Part shown: positions 7,023-14,074 of the stretch, one piece after another
How the letters are laid out: each line of letters begins with the position of its first letter
Position numbering within the stretch: the stretch's first letter is position 1
Assembly: GCF_000504205.1 (NCBI RefSeq)
Contig: NZ_AZAJ01000001.1
Location: 2,950,879-3,014,878 of the forward strand
From: Methanolobus tindarius DSM 2278
GTDB taxonomy: Archaea > Halobacteriota > Methanosarcinia > Methanosarcinales > Methanosarcinaceae
Direction of reading: 5' to 3'
Length of the DNA: 64,000 bases
The notes under the pieces: model-generated
Seen by the model: only the letters and a program-made list of their open reading frames with translations
Told to the model about the DNA's origin: nothing
Databases searched by the model: none
Position numbers and translations under genes: made by a program

Positions 7023-8402
7023 TCATTTTTCATTTACCAGCCAGCAGTGACAGTTTGCCTGGAAAAGATCTCTCCTTGTGAAATTTGCCGCAATACAGCT
7101 CCCCCTGCAAACAGAAAGCCACTGACACCTGCTGCATTCACCTTTCATGTCCGAGGCTTTCAGGCTCCTGAAATAGTTTAAGAATCGTGAATTATCCCAT
7201 ATCCACCTGAAAGACCTGTCTTTCACATTCTCAACATCTGCTCCCTCAAAATAGTTGCAGGGAAGCACATCTCCTTTTGAAGTGACAGTGCAGTATCCGA
7301 TGGCACCATCACATCCGATTCGTGCATCTGAATCAGTCTTAAATCCCTGTTCCGGAATTGGCTGGAAAGTACACTCAAATTCCATAGGTGCAATTTCAGG
7401 GCCATCAGCTTCCCTTTTGCCAAGCAGGAATTCTGTCAGCTCCTGCATCCTTTCCGGTTTTACTTCCAGATCAAGAGCTTCCATTCCACGTCCTGAAGGA
7501 ACAAAGGGCAGGATTCTGAATGTATGCACTCCCAGTTCTTTTCCCAGTTCATAAAGTTCAGGGATATTATCAATATTCATTGTGGTTACTGCGGCTGCCA
7601 GTGTAACAGGAACGCCAGCTTTTACCAGCAATTTAATTCCATCAACTGTCTTTTGCCATGAACCCAGAGACTGGCGAAAAGTATCATGTATGGCCGGTAT
7701 GCTTGAATCAAGACTAACCTGTGCTCTTGCTCCTATATTTGCCAGCTTCTCAGCAGCATCTTCATCTATCAGTGTTCCGTTGGTGGCTACCTGTATCAGT
7801 ATATTCCTAGAGGCAGCATATTCTGCTATGCCAAAAAAGTCTTTTCTAATCATAGGTTCACCGCCGCTGAGTATAAGCTGAGCTACTCCAAAATCAGCAA
7901 ACTCATCGACAAGCCTGCAGCAATCTTCAAACCCCAGCTCATCGTTGCATTCCTCTCCGGCACTCACAACGCAATGTCTGCATCTGAGATTGCATTTTGA
8001 TGTAAGGTCCCAGAGCACACCGGCAGGAGCAGGCACTTTCCAGTAGTTCATCCTTTCACTACGCCACCACAAAAGTCCCCTGTTTGTAAGTTCATCAAGT
8101 ACCGATCTGCTTTTTCTCATCACAGTATCCTGTTCAGAATGAAAAGAAGTACTCAATTGTGTGATTATCTCATCGAGTGTCCGGTACCCGTCACACATTT
8201 TGAGTAACCAGTATGCAGCTTCATTCAGTTCCTGAATTTCAGAACTGAGTGGGTCTTTTGTAATCCATATATCATTGTCCTTACTTATCCTGAAAGGAAA
8301 ATAAGGGACAGCAGATTTATCCGGAAGAACACTCCCACAGGTCATTCCGGTTTCTACGTTATAATTATCTGCTGTCAATATGCCATAGTGATTTTCTATC
8401 AC
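7023..8402 (-). CDS. PqqD-radical SAM-SPASM peptide maturase
   Basis: 459 residues from a GTG that overlaps the protease stop codon (GTGA). Residues about 34-115 look like a PqqD/RRE domain (peptide recognition). The radical SAM domain has the 4Fe-4S motif C137-x3-C141-x2-C144 in KCNLRCRHC and GGEP at 180-183. A SPASM region supplies C364, C371, C382, C423, C426, C432, C436, C451 and C453, enough for two auxiliary clusters. Enzymes of this architecture install thioether, C-C or other crosslinks in ribosomal peptides. Translational coupling to the M4 protease with the CPPxP array, and a nearby small WC peptide, point to one of these as substrate; that is inference. Confidence 0.9.
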   Translation of the reverse strand: MIENHYGILTADNYNVETGMTCGSVLPDKSAVPYFPFRISKDNDIWITKDPLSSEIQELNEAAYWLLKMCDGYRTLDEIITQLSTSFHSEQDTVMRKSRSVLDELTNRGLLWWRSERMNYWKVPAPAGVLWDLTSKCNLRCRHCVVSAGEECNDELGFEDCCRLVDEFADFGVAQLILSGGEPMIRKDFFGIAEYAASRNILIQVATNGTLIDEDAAEKLANIGARAQVSLDSSIPAIHDTFRQSLGSWQKTVDGIKLLVKAGVPVTLAAAVTTMNIDNIPELYELGKELGVHTFRILPFVPSGRGMEALDLEVKPERMQELTEFLLGKREADGPEIAPMEFECTFQPIPEQGFKTDSDARIGCDGAIGYCTVTSKGDVLPCNYFEGADVENVKDRSFRWIWDNSRFLNYFRSLKASDMKGECSRCQWLSVCRGSCIAANFTRRDLFQANCHCWLVNEK

Positions 8403-10510
8403 TTGATTTCCCCAAGCATCACAAGTGTCTTCTTTCTCCAGTCATGTATCCTGGTTTCTGAAATACCCAGTGTCTCTGAGAGTTCTGCAATCTTCTTTGA
8501 GTTCTCTGTTGCTTTCAGGAAGTCTCCCAGTGTTGAAATCGAACTTCCCTTAAACAGGGTTGCAGTTTCACGTCCGATACCTACAATCTCAATAATGTCA
8601 GTTTTCAATGTAATTACTGGATTCTTGACACGGATGTATGGATCATATGGTAATGGGTCCGGTCCTGGCAGACATGAAAGGCCTGGAGATGGCGGACAGG
8701 CTATGTATGGCGACGGTGGACAAACTATCATTGGAGATGGCGGGCATACAAAGTCCGGTGCTGGTGGGCAGATGTAAGGTGCCGGTGGGCATACAAATCC
8801 TGGTGCAGGCGGACATAGTACGTGCGGAGATGGTGGACAGATCATCGGTGCTATCCAGCATGTGAACGGGCATGTTACGGCTGTACCTATTCCCACAGCA
8901 GCAAAAGCATTGATTATGCTTGCTCTCCAGCGTGAATAATGTGGATTGCTTGAATAGAGATCATCAAGTGAATCCAGTACTGCATCTCTCATGTCGCTGA
9001 AATCCGAACTTGATACAAGATGTGTTGTGAGGGCCTGATAATAAATAAGTCCAAGTACATCACGACCAAGTCCCTCGCAGATCCTTATTCCCCTGTGTGT
9101 CCCTCCGGTGGCTATCAGGTAAGCAGCTTTGTTCATGATTCCACTGTTGATGTGGACTCCACCGTTATCTGAGTATCCTGTGTATTGGTCCCCTGTGTGA
9201 TCTGGCTGGTGGCCTGCTCTGGAACTATCGATTGGGTTTGCAGGGTCATATTGTCCACCATTGGTCGGATCTTCCATATTACGCAGGGCTGGTGCCGTTG
9301 TCGGCAGCCAGGGCTCTTCGCCTATGAGCCAGTTTCCGGATATCAGTGCACCGAAAACATCTGACATGGATTCGTTAAGTGCACCTGATTCGTTGCTGTA
9401 GACCAGTCCGGCTGTATGTTCTGTGACTGCATGTGTCCACTCGTGGGCTATAATATCCAGTGCGCAAAGTGAGTTATATCTTGAACCGTCACCGTTTCCT
9501 ATTTTGACATAACTGCCATTCCATGTAGCATTGTTCCAGCCGCTTCCGCAGTTTGCATAAATATGCATGTCAGCTCCTGCATCATCATAGCTGTCACGTC
9601 CATGTACGGTAAAGTAGTAGTCGTAAACCATTCTGGTATAAAGGTGGCAATCAACGTCAGGCCCCTGTCCGGAAGCAGACCAATTATTATTATTGTCTTC
9701 CGAAACAGGAGCAGGAGGATAGCCGCCATTGGCATCATGGGTAATAACTCTTGCAGAACTTGGTACCCATTGATCCTCAAGCAGGTATTTGGCTGTGCCG
9801 TGATCGTGTAGTGTGTTGATGGTGACAGAACCGGCATAGGTTCCGATTCCTGAACCTGTGGTTCTTGTGTGTCCCTGTTCGTTGTTGTATTTCCAGACCA
9901 CTTTTCCGTTAAGTGCATCAACAAAATATTCCCATTTAGCAGGTGTTTCATCCCCGCCAAGATCCTTGTCAATTCCGTCAACTGTAACATGCCATACCAG
10001 ATGTGGTTCTTTCACAAATTGTGACAGAACCATCAGTGTAGGTTCAGCATGCAGTTTTCCTCTGGAATTATTTTTGTCATCTTCAAGAACAGTCTTCAGT
10101 GCTTCTTCTCCTGTGACCTTTGCTTTGTCCGGCAGGTCAATTTCAGGAGTTAGCTTTCCGGTTGTTCCTTTTATATTATCGTCAGCATCAATATGTACAA
10201 TAATTTCACTGCCAAAAACAGGCAGTTCCTTGTATACCTGTTGCATGCGCACATGTCTGGCACCGATACGGTCGGTGTCAATCCTTTTCACAAGCATTTC
10301 CTTGTTAACAGAATTTAGCAGATAAAGGTCTTTATTAACTTCCATAAATTCTATGGCAGCCATTCCGGGATCCTTTTTTTCTGCTTTTGCAAGCAAGCCT
10401 TTAACCCTTAATGGGATACCCGTATGTTCATCCCATTTGATATCTACGTTTACATCGACATTTTTCAACTTGTCGAGTATATCCTTTTGTTTCCTGACAG
10501 GTTCGTACAT
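8399..10510 (-). CDS. M4 (thermolysin-like) metalloprotease with Cys-Pro repeat and helix-hairpin-helix tail, no signal peptide
   Basis: 703 residues from an ATG preceded by GGGGGAATAGGTA. An FTP/PepSY-type propeptide fills about 1-200. The catalytic domain has HEWTH (zinc ligands and general base) with the third ligand in NESMSD and GGVHINSGIMNKAA further on. Residues 547-617 hold ten cysteines, most in CPPxP units eight residues apart. The last ~75 residues (IVGIGRETATLFKG onwards) resemble a DUF4332-like helix-hairpin-helix domain. Unlike normal M4 enzymes it starts MYEPVRKQKDILDK with no export signal, so it may act in the cytoplasm or leave by another route. It could process the neighbouring small peptide or itself be modified by the radical SAM enzyme; both are inference. 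Confidence 0.92.
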   Translation of the reverse strand: MYEPVRKQKDILDKLKNVDVNVDIKWDEHTGIPLRVKGLLAKAEKKDPGMAAIEFMEVNKDLYLLNSVNKEMLVKRIDTDRIGARHVRMQQVYKELPVFGSEIIVHIDADDNIKGTTGKLTPEIDLPDKAKVTGEEALKTVLEDDKNNSRGKLHAEPTLMVLSQFVKEPHLVWHVTVDGIDKDLGGDETPAKWEYFVDALNGKVVWKYNNEQGHTRTTGSGIGTYAGSVTINTLHDHGTAKYLLEDQWVPSSARVITHDANGGYPPAPVSEDNNNNWSASGQGPDVDCHLYTRMVYDYYFTVHGRDSYDDAGADMHIYANCGSGWNNATWNGSYVKIGNGDGSRYNSLCALDIIAHEWTHAVTEHTAGLVYSNESGALNESMSDVFGALISGNWLIGEEPWLPTTAPALRNMEDPTNGGQYDPANPIDSSRAGHQPDHTGDQYTGYSDNGGVHINSGIMNKAAYLIATGGTHRGIRICEGLGRDVLGLIYYQALTTHLVSSSDFSDMRDAVLDSLDDLYSSNPHYSRWRASIINAFAAVGIGTAVTCPFTCWIAPMICPPSPHVLCPPAPGFVCPPAPYICPPAPDFVCPPSPMIVCPPSPYIACPPSPGLSCLPGPDPLPYDPYIRVKNPVITLKTDIIEIVGIGRETATLFKGSSISTLGDFLKATENSKKIAELSETLGISETRIHDWRKKTLVMLGEIK
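8660..8872 (-). repeat. ~24-bp tandem repeat encoding CPP(S/A)P units
   Basis: Inside the M4 protease gene seven CPP(S/A)P units plus a CLPGP variant follow each other with an eight-residue period (one unit is seven). Units differ in the three residues after CPPxP (HVL, GFV, YI, DFV, MIV, YIA, GLS). Ten cysteines fall at residues 547, 551, 558, 566, 574, 581, 589, 597, 605 and 613. The array links the protease domain to the C-terminal helix-hairpin-helix domain. Confidence 0.9.
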
Positions 10511-10741: not shown

Positions 10742-10939
10742 TTAATCGCTTTTCTCTGGTTTTTTCTTCTTTTCTTCTTCCACGGTTGTGTTATCACACC
10801 ATGCATCAACTTCAAAATCCGCTGCACTTTTGTTCTCGTCATTAGAGTCCGGTACTGTACACCATGTGTCAATCTGCTCATCAAGAGTTGGTATCTCTAT
10901 GTCTTCAATTTCTTCTTTTTTAGCATTTTTTTTGTCCAT
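10742..10939 (-). CDS. Small acidic peptide with two W-C motifs, candidate modified-peptide precursor
   Basis: 65 residues. I choose the ATG at 10939 because GGAG lies nine bases before it; an ATG at 10954 would add MEFCK without a clear site. The peptide has a charged N-terminal half (leader-like), then IDTWC (C27) and VDAWC (C48), the same five-residue motif 21 residues apart, each followed by a short polar stretch, and a Lys/Glu tail. These are the only cysteines. It lies upstream of, and in the same direction as, the M4 protease and the radical SAM maturase, 231 bp from the former. A precursor role is inference. It matches no family I recognise. Confidence 0.65.
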   Translation of the reverse strand: MDKKNAKKEEIEDIEIPTLDEQIDTWCTVPDSNDENKSAADFEVDAWCDNTTVEEEKKKKPEKSD

Positions 10940-11206
10940 TTTACAAAACTCCATTTTGATTTTATCATGCTCTCAATTTAGTAGAGCATATACTCCACTT
11001 TCCTGAAATTCTATCAGTTCTGAAGCTTAAAAAATGTTTTTACCGTAGAAGGAGCAGTGCCAAATTATATTAAGTTAAAAAAATAAACATTTCTGCAGGA
11101 AAATTATCATTTCCGGGAAAAAATGGGGTAGTTATATCTATGGGAATAGAGTCTGGCTGCTAAAGTTGAATATCAGGTTGGTATAAATCATTTAATGGAG
11201 ATTGTT

Positions 11207-13324: not shown

Positions 13325-14074
13325 TTAGAGAATAGGACTTATGGTCCGTAGTTCTATTATCTGTCCCCACATGTGGAAGCTCATCATATCGTCACGTTGA
13401 TAGGCGGTGAATCTGATTTCTGTTCCATCAGTTTTGAAGTCATCTGGCAGGTTAATCGGGTCATAATTTGTATCGTCAGCGCCTATGATTCCATAAAATC
13501 CGCCTTCAAGATTATTGTATGTCACAATTCCTGTGTCAGTTATGAGTTCACTTTCCGGAATGACATCGATGGTCAATTCATAACTGTCTTCGGTTCCTGT
13601 AGGTTCTTCCCATGGCCGTATGTAAATTGCGGATATGTTCTGCTCATCCATGTCGGTTACTTCAAAAATCCATGTGTGGTAACCTGGTGCACCTACCATT
13701 TCTGCTCTAATACTTGCTTCAGCGTATACATCCTCTTTAAGTTTAAGTCCTTCACTGTATGTCATATTCCATGAATATCCGGTTGTTGGATTTTCTTGGA
13801 GAGTAACGATTATTGTATCGCCAATAATAGCATAGGCTGTGCTTTGGCTCTCATTCTCTGAAAAGTGTTGAGTAACATTTGACATTGTACCTATGGAAAC
13901 ACCAGAATTGTCTGTGATTCCCGGTTGTTCTTCTACGTCTGGTGTTGTAGTGTTGATGTCATCAATACTTGCGTTGGATTCGTACTCACCTGTATCGTCG
14001 CTTTCTGATACACAGCCGCAAGTCATGCATACAAGCAAAACAACTGCTGCAACCGTAAATAATCTGATATTCAT
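13325..14074 (-). CDS. Chagasin-like (I42) protease inhibitor lipoprotein with second inhibitor-like domain
   Basis: 249 residues. The N-terminus is a lipoprotein signal (VVLLVCMTCGC), then a low-complexity acidic linker. Residues about 75-175 have the three I42 loop signatures: NPTTGYSW, a Gly-containing loop before YHTWIF, and RPWE. Chagasins block papain-type cysteine proteases by inserting these loops in the active-site cleft. The C-terminal ~60 residues (DPINLPDDFKTDGTEIRFTA) resemble a small domain often found in lipoproteins beside or fused to such inhibitors. It should sit outside the membrane. A purine-rich GGGAGATGA precedes the ATG. Confidence 0.85.
   Translation of the reverse strand: MNIRLFTVAAVVLLVCMTCGCVSESDDTGEYESNASIDDINTTTPDVEEQPGITDNSGVSIGTMSNVTQHFSENESQSTAYAIIGDTIIVTLQENPTTGYSWNMTYSEGLKLKEDVYAEASIRAEMVGAPGYHTWIFEVTDMDEQNISAIYIRPWEEPTGTEDSYELTIDVIPESELITDTGIVTYNNLEGGFYGIIGADDTNYDPINLPDDFKTDGTEIRFTAYQRDDMMSFHMWGQIIELRTISPIL

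Follow-up and report, generated by a model that had tools for sequence, protein, structure and literature searches.

A clade of archaeal radical SAM-SPASM enzymes very probably modifies arrays of cysteine and proline residues which are carried by whole, unrelated proteins encoded next to them. In the window, i.e., the entire stretch of 64,000 nucleotides analyzed from Methanolobus tindarius DSM 2278, such an array is part of an M4 peptidase, and the radical SAM gene lies downstream of the protease gene, with an overlap of 4 nt (Table 1). That the enzyme acts on the tail is deduced from sequence and gene context, since tails of this type, found in some methane-cycling archaea on unrelated proteins that are mostly proteases, almost always adjoin one radical SAM family. 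As a whole, the data are best accounted for by a portable radical SAM substrate which whole proteins would carry as a fusion and which would be modified in the cytosol, probably by thioether crosslinking, a reading which we consider likely.

The ten-cysteine array that a preliminary description of this DNA had placed at 8660-8872 is indeed found there, residues 547-617 of the protease (CPFTCWIAPMICPPSPHVLCPPAPGFVCPPAPYICPPAPDFVCPPSPMIVCPPSPYIACPPSPGLSCLPGP) mapping exactly to these positions on the minus strand. The same description located the array inside the protease, with a cysteine every eight residues and a constant CPP(S/A)P unit, statements which hold in part. The array does belong to the same 703-aa polypeptide but lies outside the catalytic domain, as M4 and M4_C finish at residue 541 and the array starts at residue 547. 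The Cys-to-Cys spacings (4, 7, 8, 8, 7, 8, 8, 8 and 8) are mostly of eight residues but not fully regular, and CPP(S/A)P accounts for seven of the ten cysteine units, while CWIAP and CLPGP are degenerate forms (C-x-x-[A/G]-P) and the first unit is CPFT. Comparison of 14 orthologues showed that the array cysteines are identical in amino acid in 910 pairwise comparisons with a codon match of 66%, and the array prolines in 2275 pairwise comparisons with a codon match of 47%; the remaining positions, neither Cys nor Pro, are 74% identical. Since cysteine and proline residues are invariant while their codons drift, the amino acid sequence of the array is under selection and not a product of chance. 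The number of CPP units is seven in 11 of these genomes, eight in two and nine in one.

Table 1. Features of the protease and radical SAM genes in the window (all coordinates refer to the whole stretch).
Feature	Coordinates	Strand	Basis
703-aa M4 peptidase bearing a Cys-Pro array toward its C-terminus	8399..10510	-	ORF; Pfam FTP, Peptidase_M4 and Peptidase_M4_C above cut-offs
FTP propeptide motif, residues 74-119	10154..10291	-	PF07504, E 6.5e-13
M4 catalytic and helical domains, residues 218-541	8888..9859	-	PF01447, E 1e-28; PF02868, E 1.3e-39
Cys-Pro array, residues 547-617, the proposed radical SAM substrate (10 Cys; 9 C-x-x-[S/A/G]-P units)	8660..8872	-	Sequence, motif counts
Domain C-terminal to the array, residues 618-703	8402..8659	-	Sub-threshold Pfam DUF4332 / helix-hairpin-helix, E 0.007-0.008
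Proposed maturase of 459 aa, a radical SAM-SPASM enzyme that begins with an RRE (PqqD-like)	7023..8402	-	PF04055, PF05402 and PF13186 above cut-offs
RRE / PqqD-like domain of the radical SAM enzyme, residues 51-111	8070..8252	-	PF05402, E 2.2e-9
Radical SAM core, residues 133-286, C137-x3-C141-x2-C144	7545..8006	-	PF04055, E 1.9e-24; Cys invariant
SPASM domain, residues 364-427	7122..7313	-	PF13186

The carrier belongs to the M4 family, with M4 and M4_C domains, an HExxH motif and an NE ligand downstream, and its catalytic motifs (HEWTH and GALNESMSD) are intact in all 14 orthologues. The domain of about 86 residues which follows the array is conserved across the same orthologues and is a possible recognition element. 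N-terminal hydrophobicity revealed no signal-peptide-like N-terminus in the window protease, and the N-termini of the nine carriers checked contain no strongly hydrophobic, signal-like segment (best 15-residue mean <1.0), which agrees with these proteins having to be accessible to an iron-sulfur enzyme of the cytosol.

The radical SAM enzyme combines a CxxxCxxC core, an RRE and a SPASM domain with a conserved candidate substrate next to it (23 of 24 genomes, see below), which are the features of RRE-containing radical SAM-SPASM peptide maturases. The SPASM region contains seven cysteine residues (Cys364, 382, 423, 426, 432, 436 and 453), all invariant in the alignment of the radical SAM enzymes. 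PF05402 is above its cut-off also in the enzymes tested that are linked to two other carrier types described below, S8 subtilases and proteins of contractile-injection (eCIS) loci; Pfam did not detect the RRE in a caspase-linked enzyme (L213). No NCBIfam radical SAM equivalog cut-off is reached by the window enzyme (best 205.9 vs 500 bits) or by L058 (best 217.3 vs 265 bits), the equivalogs compared including AhbD, NirJ, mycofactocin, SkfB, PapB, SCIFF and GeoRSP. Among solved structures, SkfB, PqqE and CteB are the best matches of the radical SAM profile (E 5e-37 to 2e-32), and anaerobic sulfatase-maturating enzymes match as well (E 4e-23). The chains 5wgg and 5v1q, which we take to be CteB and SuiB, respectively, align to the profile over the RRE region too.

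The preliminary description had proposed that, if the array is the substrate of a radical SAM maturase, both should occur together among protease homologues, and that arrays equally common in homologues lacking a radical SAM gene would speak against it. Among the 27 genomes of the genus, protease, array and radical SAM gene stand side by side in 14 and are all missing from 13, with none containing only one of them. Across the 237 genomes of the class, two consecutive CPPxP-type units are encoded in 16 genomes (15 true arrays and one false match) and three consecutive C-x-x-G-x-P units in seven (five true and two false); the arrays of G005, G063 and G174, being irregular, escape these patterns. 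The matches discarded as arrays correspond to the opposite strand of a Gly/His-rich protein (G165), the antisense of an Arg-Asp repeat protein (G121) and another frame of an enzyme gene (G202). The 20 genomes with a true array match all possess a radical SAM enzyme of the clade, located on the same contig as the array in 19; in G046, the array matches are on contig C52, and contig C26 opens with the end of such a carrier followed by the radical SAM gene.

Conversely, the array was absent from all 16 M4 homologue loci examined that lack the radical SAM gene, a control consisting of those M4 matches outside the genus for which loci were given (L015-L030), with absence of the radical SAM gene checked within 1.5 kb. 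Two S8 homologues (G167 and G171, 40-41% identical) stop just past the catalytic domain and have neither array nor radical SAM gene, and the S8 control of 26 loci outside G160 and G174 (two close and 24 more distant) contained neither within 1.5 kb flanks. Similarly, array and radical SAM gene are absent from the five readable loci of caspase-like relatives (L320-L324); in G077 and G078, which encode relatives about 70% identical, the contigs end before the expected start of the array. Among the other radical SAM relatives from the genome scan, none of 78 loci contains an array. In a sample of 392 genomes of the phylum, six of the matches listed were examined, of which that of G017, a member of the class, has an array and the five outside the class have none; in viral contigs, one scan returned 38 loci with a best identity of 33%, none of them close. 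The anticipated co-occurrence is thus borne out, homologues of the three peptidase-type carriers without the radical SAM gene being devoid of arrays, and the proposal of a substrate fused to an enzyme gains support from the 20 array-containing genomes as well as from carriers of other types than that of the window.

A profile (A2) built from ten radical SAM enzymes of the clade and searched over the class recovered members in 24 of the 237 genomes (E ≤ 1.6e-126), the next-best match (E 1.7e-88) corresponding to shorter relatives which align without the RRE region. In 23 of the 24, the preceding gene on the same strand encodes a Cys-Pro array. In the 24th (G201), no array is encoded upstream, the neighbor there being an ORF of 109 aa that contains CVVGGP just once, and a search around G201 added none of its relatives to the known clade members. 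The carriers are M4 metallopeptidases (14 genomes), S8 subtilases (two), caspase-like proteins (three) and a protein of contractile-injection loci (four). In the phylogenetic tree, each carrier group corresponds to one branch with 100% bootstrap, all within a single radical SAM clade, so that the array persists through changes of carrier. As the 14 M4 cases stem from one event, carriers were recruited independently about four times rather than 23 times. The G253 enzyme branches near the clade and has no array; its place in the tree and that of the G201 enzyme are unsure, both having long branches.

The S8 subtilase carriers (Peptidase_S8, E 3.4e-28) occur in the Methanosarcina-like genomes G160 and G174 and end in CPPAPKICPPGPIR or CLRGPIQ repeats. 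Right after the S8-linked radical SAM gene, a protein of 105-106 aa is encoded (L061:1861-2181, plus strand; L062:5506-5823, minus strand) which shares 32% identity with the N-terminal region of the carrier and perhaps inhibits or chaperones the protease as a separate protein. The array-less S8 homologues in L365 and L366 likewise have small ORFs beside them. The caspase-like carriers (G005, G017 and G079) are 318-358 aa long with repeats such as CRTGLPDS and CAAGP; the pairs H113-G114 and S148-C149, of the His-Gly and small-Cys form that the catalytic dyad of clan CD peptidases takes, are invariant in ten homologues, and neither a Pfam match nor a credible solved relative was found. Stand-alone caspase-like proteins, conserved in two genomes, are encoded at L323:1405-2031 (plus strand) and L324:1453-2091 (minus strand), directly after genes read from their ORFs as response-regulator-like and histidine-kinase-like.

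In the Ca. Methanoperedens-type genomes G046, G048, G054 and G063, the carrier is a protein of about 1170-1395 aa with CarboxypepD_reg and Big_1 repeats (split over two contigs in G046), whose arrays consist of CLAGKPDNTIT or CPAGQPDTPC; in G054, further array units lie between the repeat domains, at positions 838-1000. No Pfam peptidase catalytic family matched this carrier. Its loci (L063, L064, L065 and L066) appear contractile-injection-like from their gene content, with eCIS_core-type proteins, an M36-like peptidase and the radical SAM gene mid-locus; an eCIS_core protein and a Tail_P2_I protein are encoded in L065, and the M36-like peptidase in L063. Eligibility of the window protease as eCIS cargo was probed through eCIS core genes: the eCIS core model PF13699, which does match a Methanoperedens neighbor protein, matched none of the 27 genomes of the window genus and likewise none of the control genomes.

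Despite this variety, a common unit can be recognized, C-x-x-[S/A/G]-(x)-P, with a small residue at +3 and a proline at +4 or +5. It fits 201 of 230 array cysteines vs 3 of 97 other cysteines, a count which omits G046 and somewhat favors the eCIS arrays, their regions being cut from a motif onward. By carrier, the fit is 130/144 for M4, 24/28 for S8, 30/37 for eCIS and 17/21 for caspase-like proteins; 29 of the 230 cysteines lack the unit motif, the eCIS arrays being the most variable. The caspase-like arrays, which contain both CRTGLP and CAAGP, tie the two variants of the unit together.

A small acidic ORF (10742-10954, minus strand), whose two D-x-W-C sites are separated by about 20 residues and which has no Pfam or NCBIfam match, was considered as a separate precursor and rejected: every one of the 27 genus genomes has it, the 13 that lack protease and radical SAM gene among them, and it is a core gene not tied to the radical SAM enzyme. 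A Chagasin-type cysteine peptidase inhibitor (PF09394) is encoded a few genes from the protease (13325-14074, minus strand), and further genomes of the genus have a similar ORF close to their protease gene. In G135, a short ORF starting MILMKFTFQLFVKIVIDSVFIRLNSY occurs twice between the protease and the W-C ORF (L069:7256-7378 and 7424-7579, minus strand) and looks like a repeated element. Upstream of the G128 protease, unlike in the other genomes looked at, a 756-aa protein is encoded (L218:4653-6923, minus strand), with no confident Pfam family and a weak match to baseplate gp53-like proteins.

Based on these data, a mechanism can be proposed. The M4 peptidase would be made in the cytosol, no signal peptide being seen, and the RRE of the radical SAM enzyme would probably dock on the carrier, perhaps on its conserved C-terminal domain or on the array flanks. 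The enzyme would then work along successive C-x-x-[S/A/G]-P units, most likely installing thioether bonds between each cysteine and a carbon of a residue from its own unit, for which the small residue at +3, judging from its conservation, would be the best candidate acceptor. The resulting rod, compact and protease-resistant, would sit on an active protease. Array and radical SAM enzyme would form a portable module, with related enzymes serving arrays that are grafted on four kinds of protein (metallopeptidase, subtilase, caspase-like protein and contractile-injection-locus protein).

Several known systems share part of these features. In borosins, the substrate is fused to the modifying methyltransferase in one polypeptide; here too, an enzyme and the candidate substrate share one chain, but that enzyme is a protease, and modification would fall to a second protein. 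Sactipeptide and ranthipeptide systems (SkfB, AlbA and CteB/SCIFF) similarly involve a gene pair, cysteine donors and an enzyme combining RRE, radical SAM and SPASM or twitch domains. However, their precursors are short leader-core peptides, whereas the present carriers are about 318-1395 aa long with complete enzyme or repeat domains, the array is C-terminal or internal, and no equivalog cut-off is met. Repeat-core systems such as TvgA and TvgB also involve one radical SAM enzyme acting on many copies of a short motif (PMC9062424), but the TvgA peptide has TVGG repeats, which contain no cysteine, undergoes C–C chemistry and is not part of an enzyme. The QHNDH system comprises the radical SAM enzyme QhpD, its substrate QhpC and the single-turnover subtilase QhpE, which act in the cytoplasm (PMC7876137). 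As proposed here, a radical SAM enzyme crosslinks cysteines within a protein subunit in the cytoplasm and a subtilase takes part in the pathway (PMC7876137), but substrate, radical SAM enzyme and protease are three proteins, and three Cys-Asp/Glu bonds are formed instead of a modified repeat array. The carrier of the window is moreover an M4 and not an S8 protease, and the S8 carrier, at 54 bits, falls short of the QhpE cut-off of 165 bits. Archaea hold many predicted radical SAM RiPP clusters, and the portions of the cited work consulted describe no Cys-Pro array system (PMC12144867). In the open literature searched, no description of such fused arrays was found, with an earlier mention possible in the 2022 radical SAM RiPP atlas or in Haft and Basu, 2011.

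The fate of the array is the first point on which another reading deserves attention. The carrier protease could be a built-in leader peptidase which cuts off the modified array, in cis or between molecules, to free a multi-ring peptide. Three of the four carriers are peptidase-like, of different catalytic classes and with intact motifs, the S8 carrier weakly matches QhpE, a subtilase by which a radical SAM-crosslinked protein is trimmed, and more weakly PatA, and QhpC, QhpD and QhpE provide a cytoplasmic precedent (PMC7876137). Such self-release appears rather unlikely, given that the eCIS-locus carrier matches no Pfam peptidase catalytic family and has array units between its repeat domains, that a conserved domain follows the M4 arrays, which therefore do not form the protein end, and that an informal look at the neighbor genes read recognized no peptide exporter. 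The array units between eCIS-carrier domains and the conserved domain after the M4 array favor retention, and we regard it as probable that the array stays on its carrier protein. A broader version, in which one archaeal radical SAM clade would make thioether-ring arrays on unrelated whole proteins as a protein-scale RiPP system, the fused protease freeing a multi-ring peptide on peptidase carriers and the array being displayed on injection-system proteins, is a little more doubtful than self-release itself; if true, it would represent a self-processing, enzyme-fused, multi-core radical SAM precursor.

The nature of the modification is the second point. SPASM enzymes also perform formylglycine formation, epimerization and C–C bond formation, and the radical SAM enzyme could act on the array by a chemistry other than thioether crosslinking, for example by oxidizing its cysteines to formylglycine, the chemistry of anaerobic sulfatase maturation, or by one of the other two. 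Anaerobic sulfatase-maturating enzymes recognize a short Cys/Pro-containing target motif which loosely resembles the array unit, and their structures match the profile, as noted above. SkfB, PqqE and CteB match better, though, many cysteines each followed by a small residue suit ring formation, and the profile scores reach the NCBIfam equivalog cut-off of none of these chemistries, which leaves these alternatives unlikely. With SkfB, PqqE and CteB as the best solved matches, thioether formation is favored, and we lean, by analogy, toward a thioether bond as the modification.

Readings in which the radical SAM enzyme plays no part in the array fare considerably less well. Anaerobic archaea often use cysteine residues for metal binding, and a Cys-rich, evenly spaced and proline-rich array could be a metal-binding or disulfide-bonded stalk next to a radical SAM enzyme acting on something else. 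This is very improbable, since a stalk would neither track one radical SAM clade over four unrelated carriers nor vanish from homologues without the radical SAM gene, and the small cysteine-containing ORF nearby, present in the whole genus with or without the radical SAM gene, is no better substrate. A plain proline-rich linker produced by repeat expansion, with functionless cysteines, would explain the variable number of units (7, 8 or 9) but can practically be dismissed, as cysteine and proline residues are 100% conserved vs 74% at the other array positions, with drifting codons.

The known substrates of radical SAM crosslinking are mainly short peptides. The array proposed as a substrate here is a repeat that, within a single enzyme clade, occurs on no fewer than four protein types unrelated to one another, of which three are peptidase-like. 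If true, this reading would provide anaerobic archaea with a portable, genetically encoded means to equip functional cytosolic enzymes with crosslinked rods; it also predicts substrates for a set of unassigned archaeal radical SAM genes and offers a minimal two-gene system.
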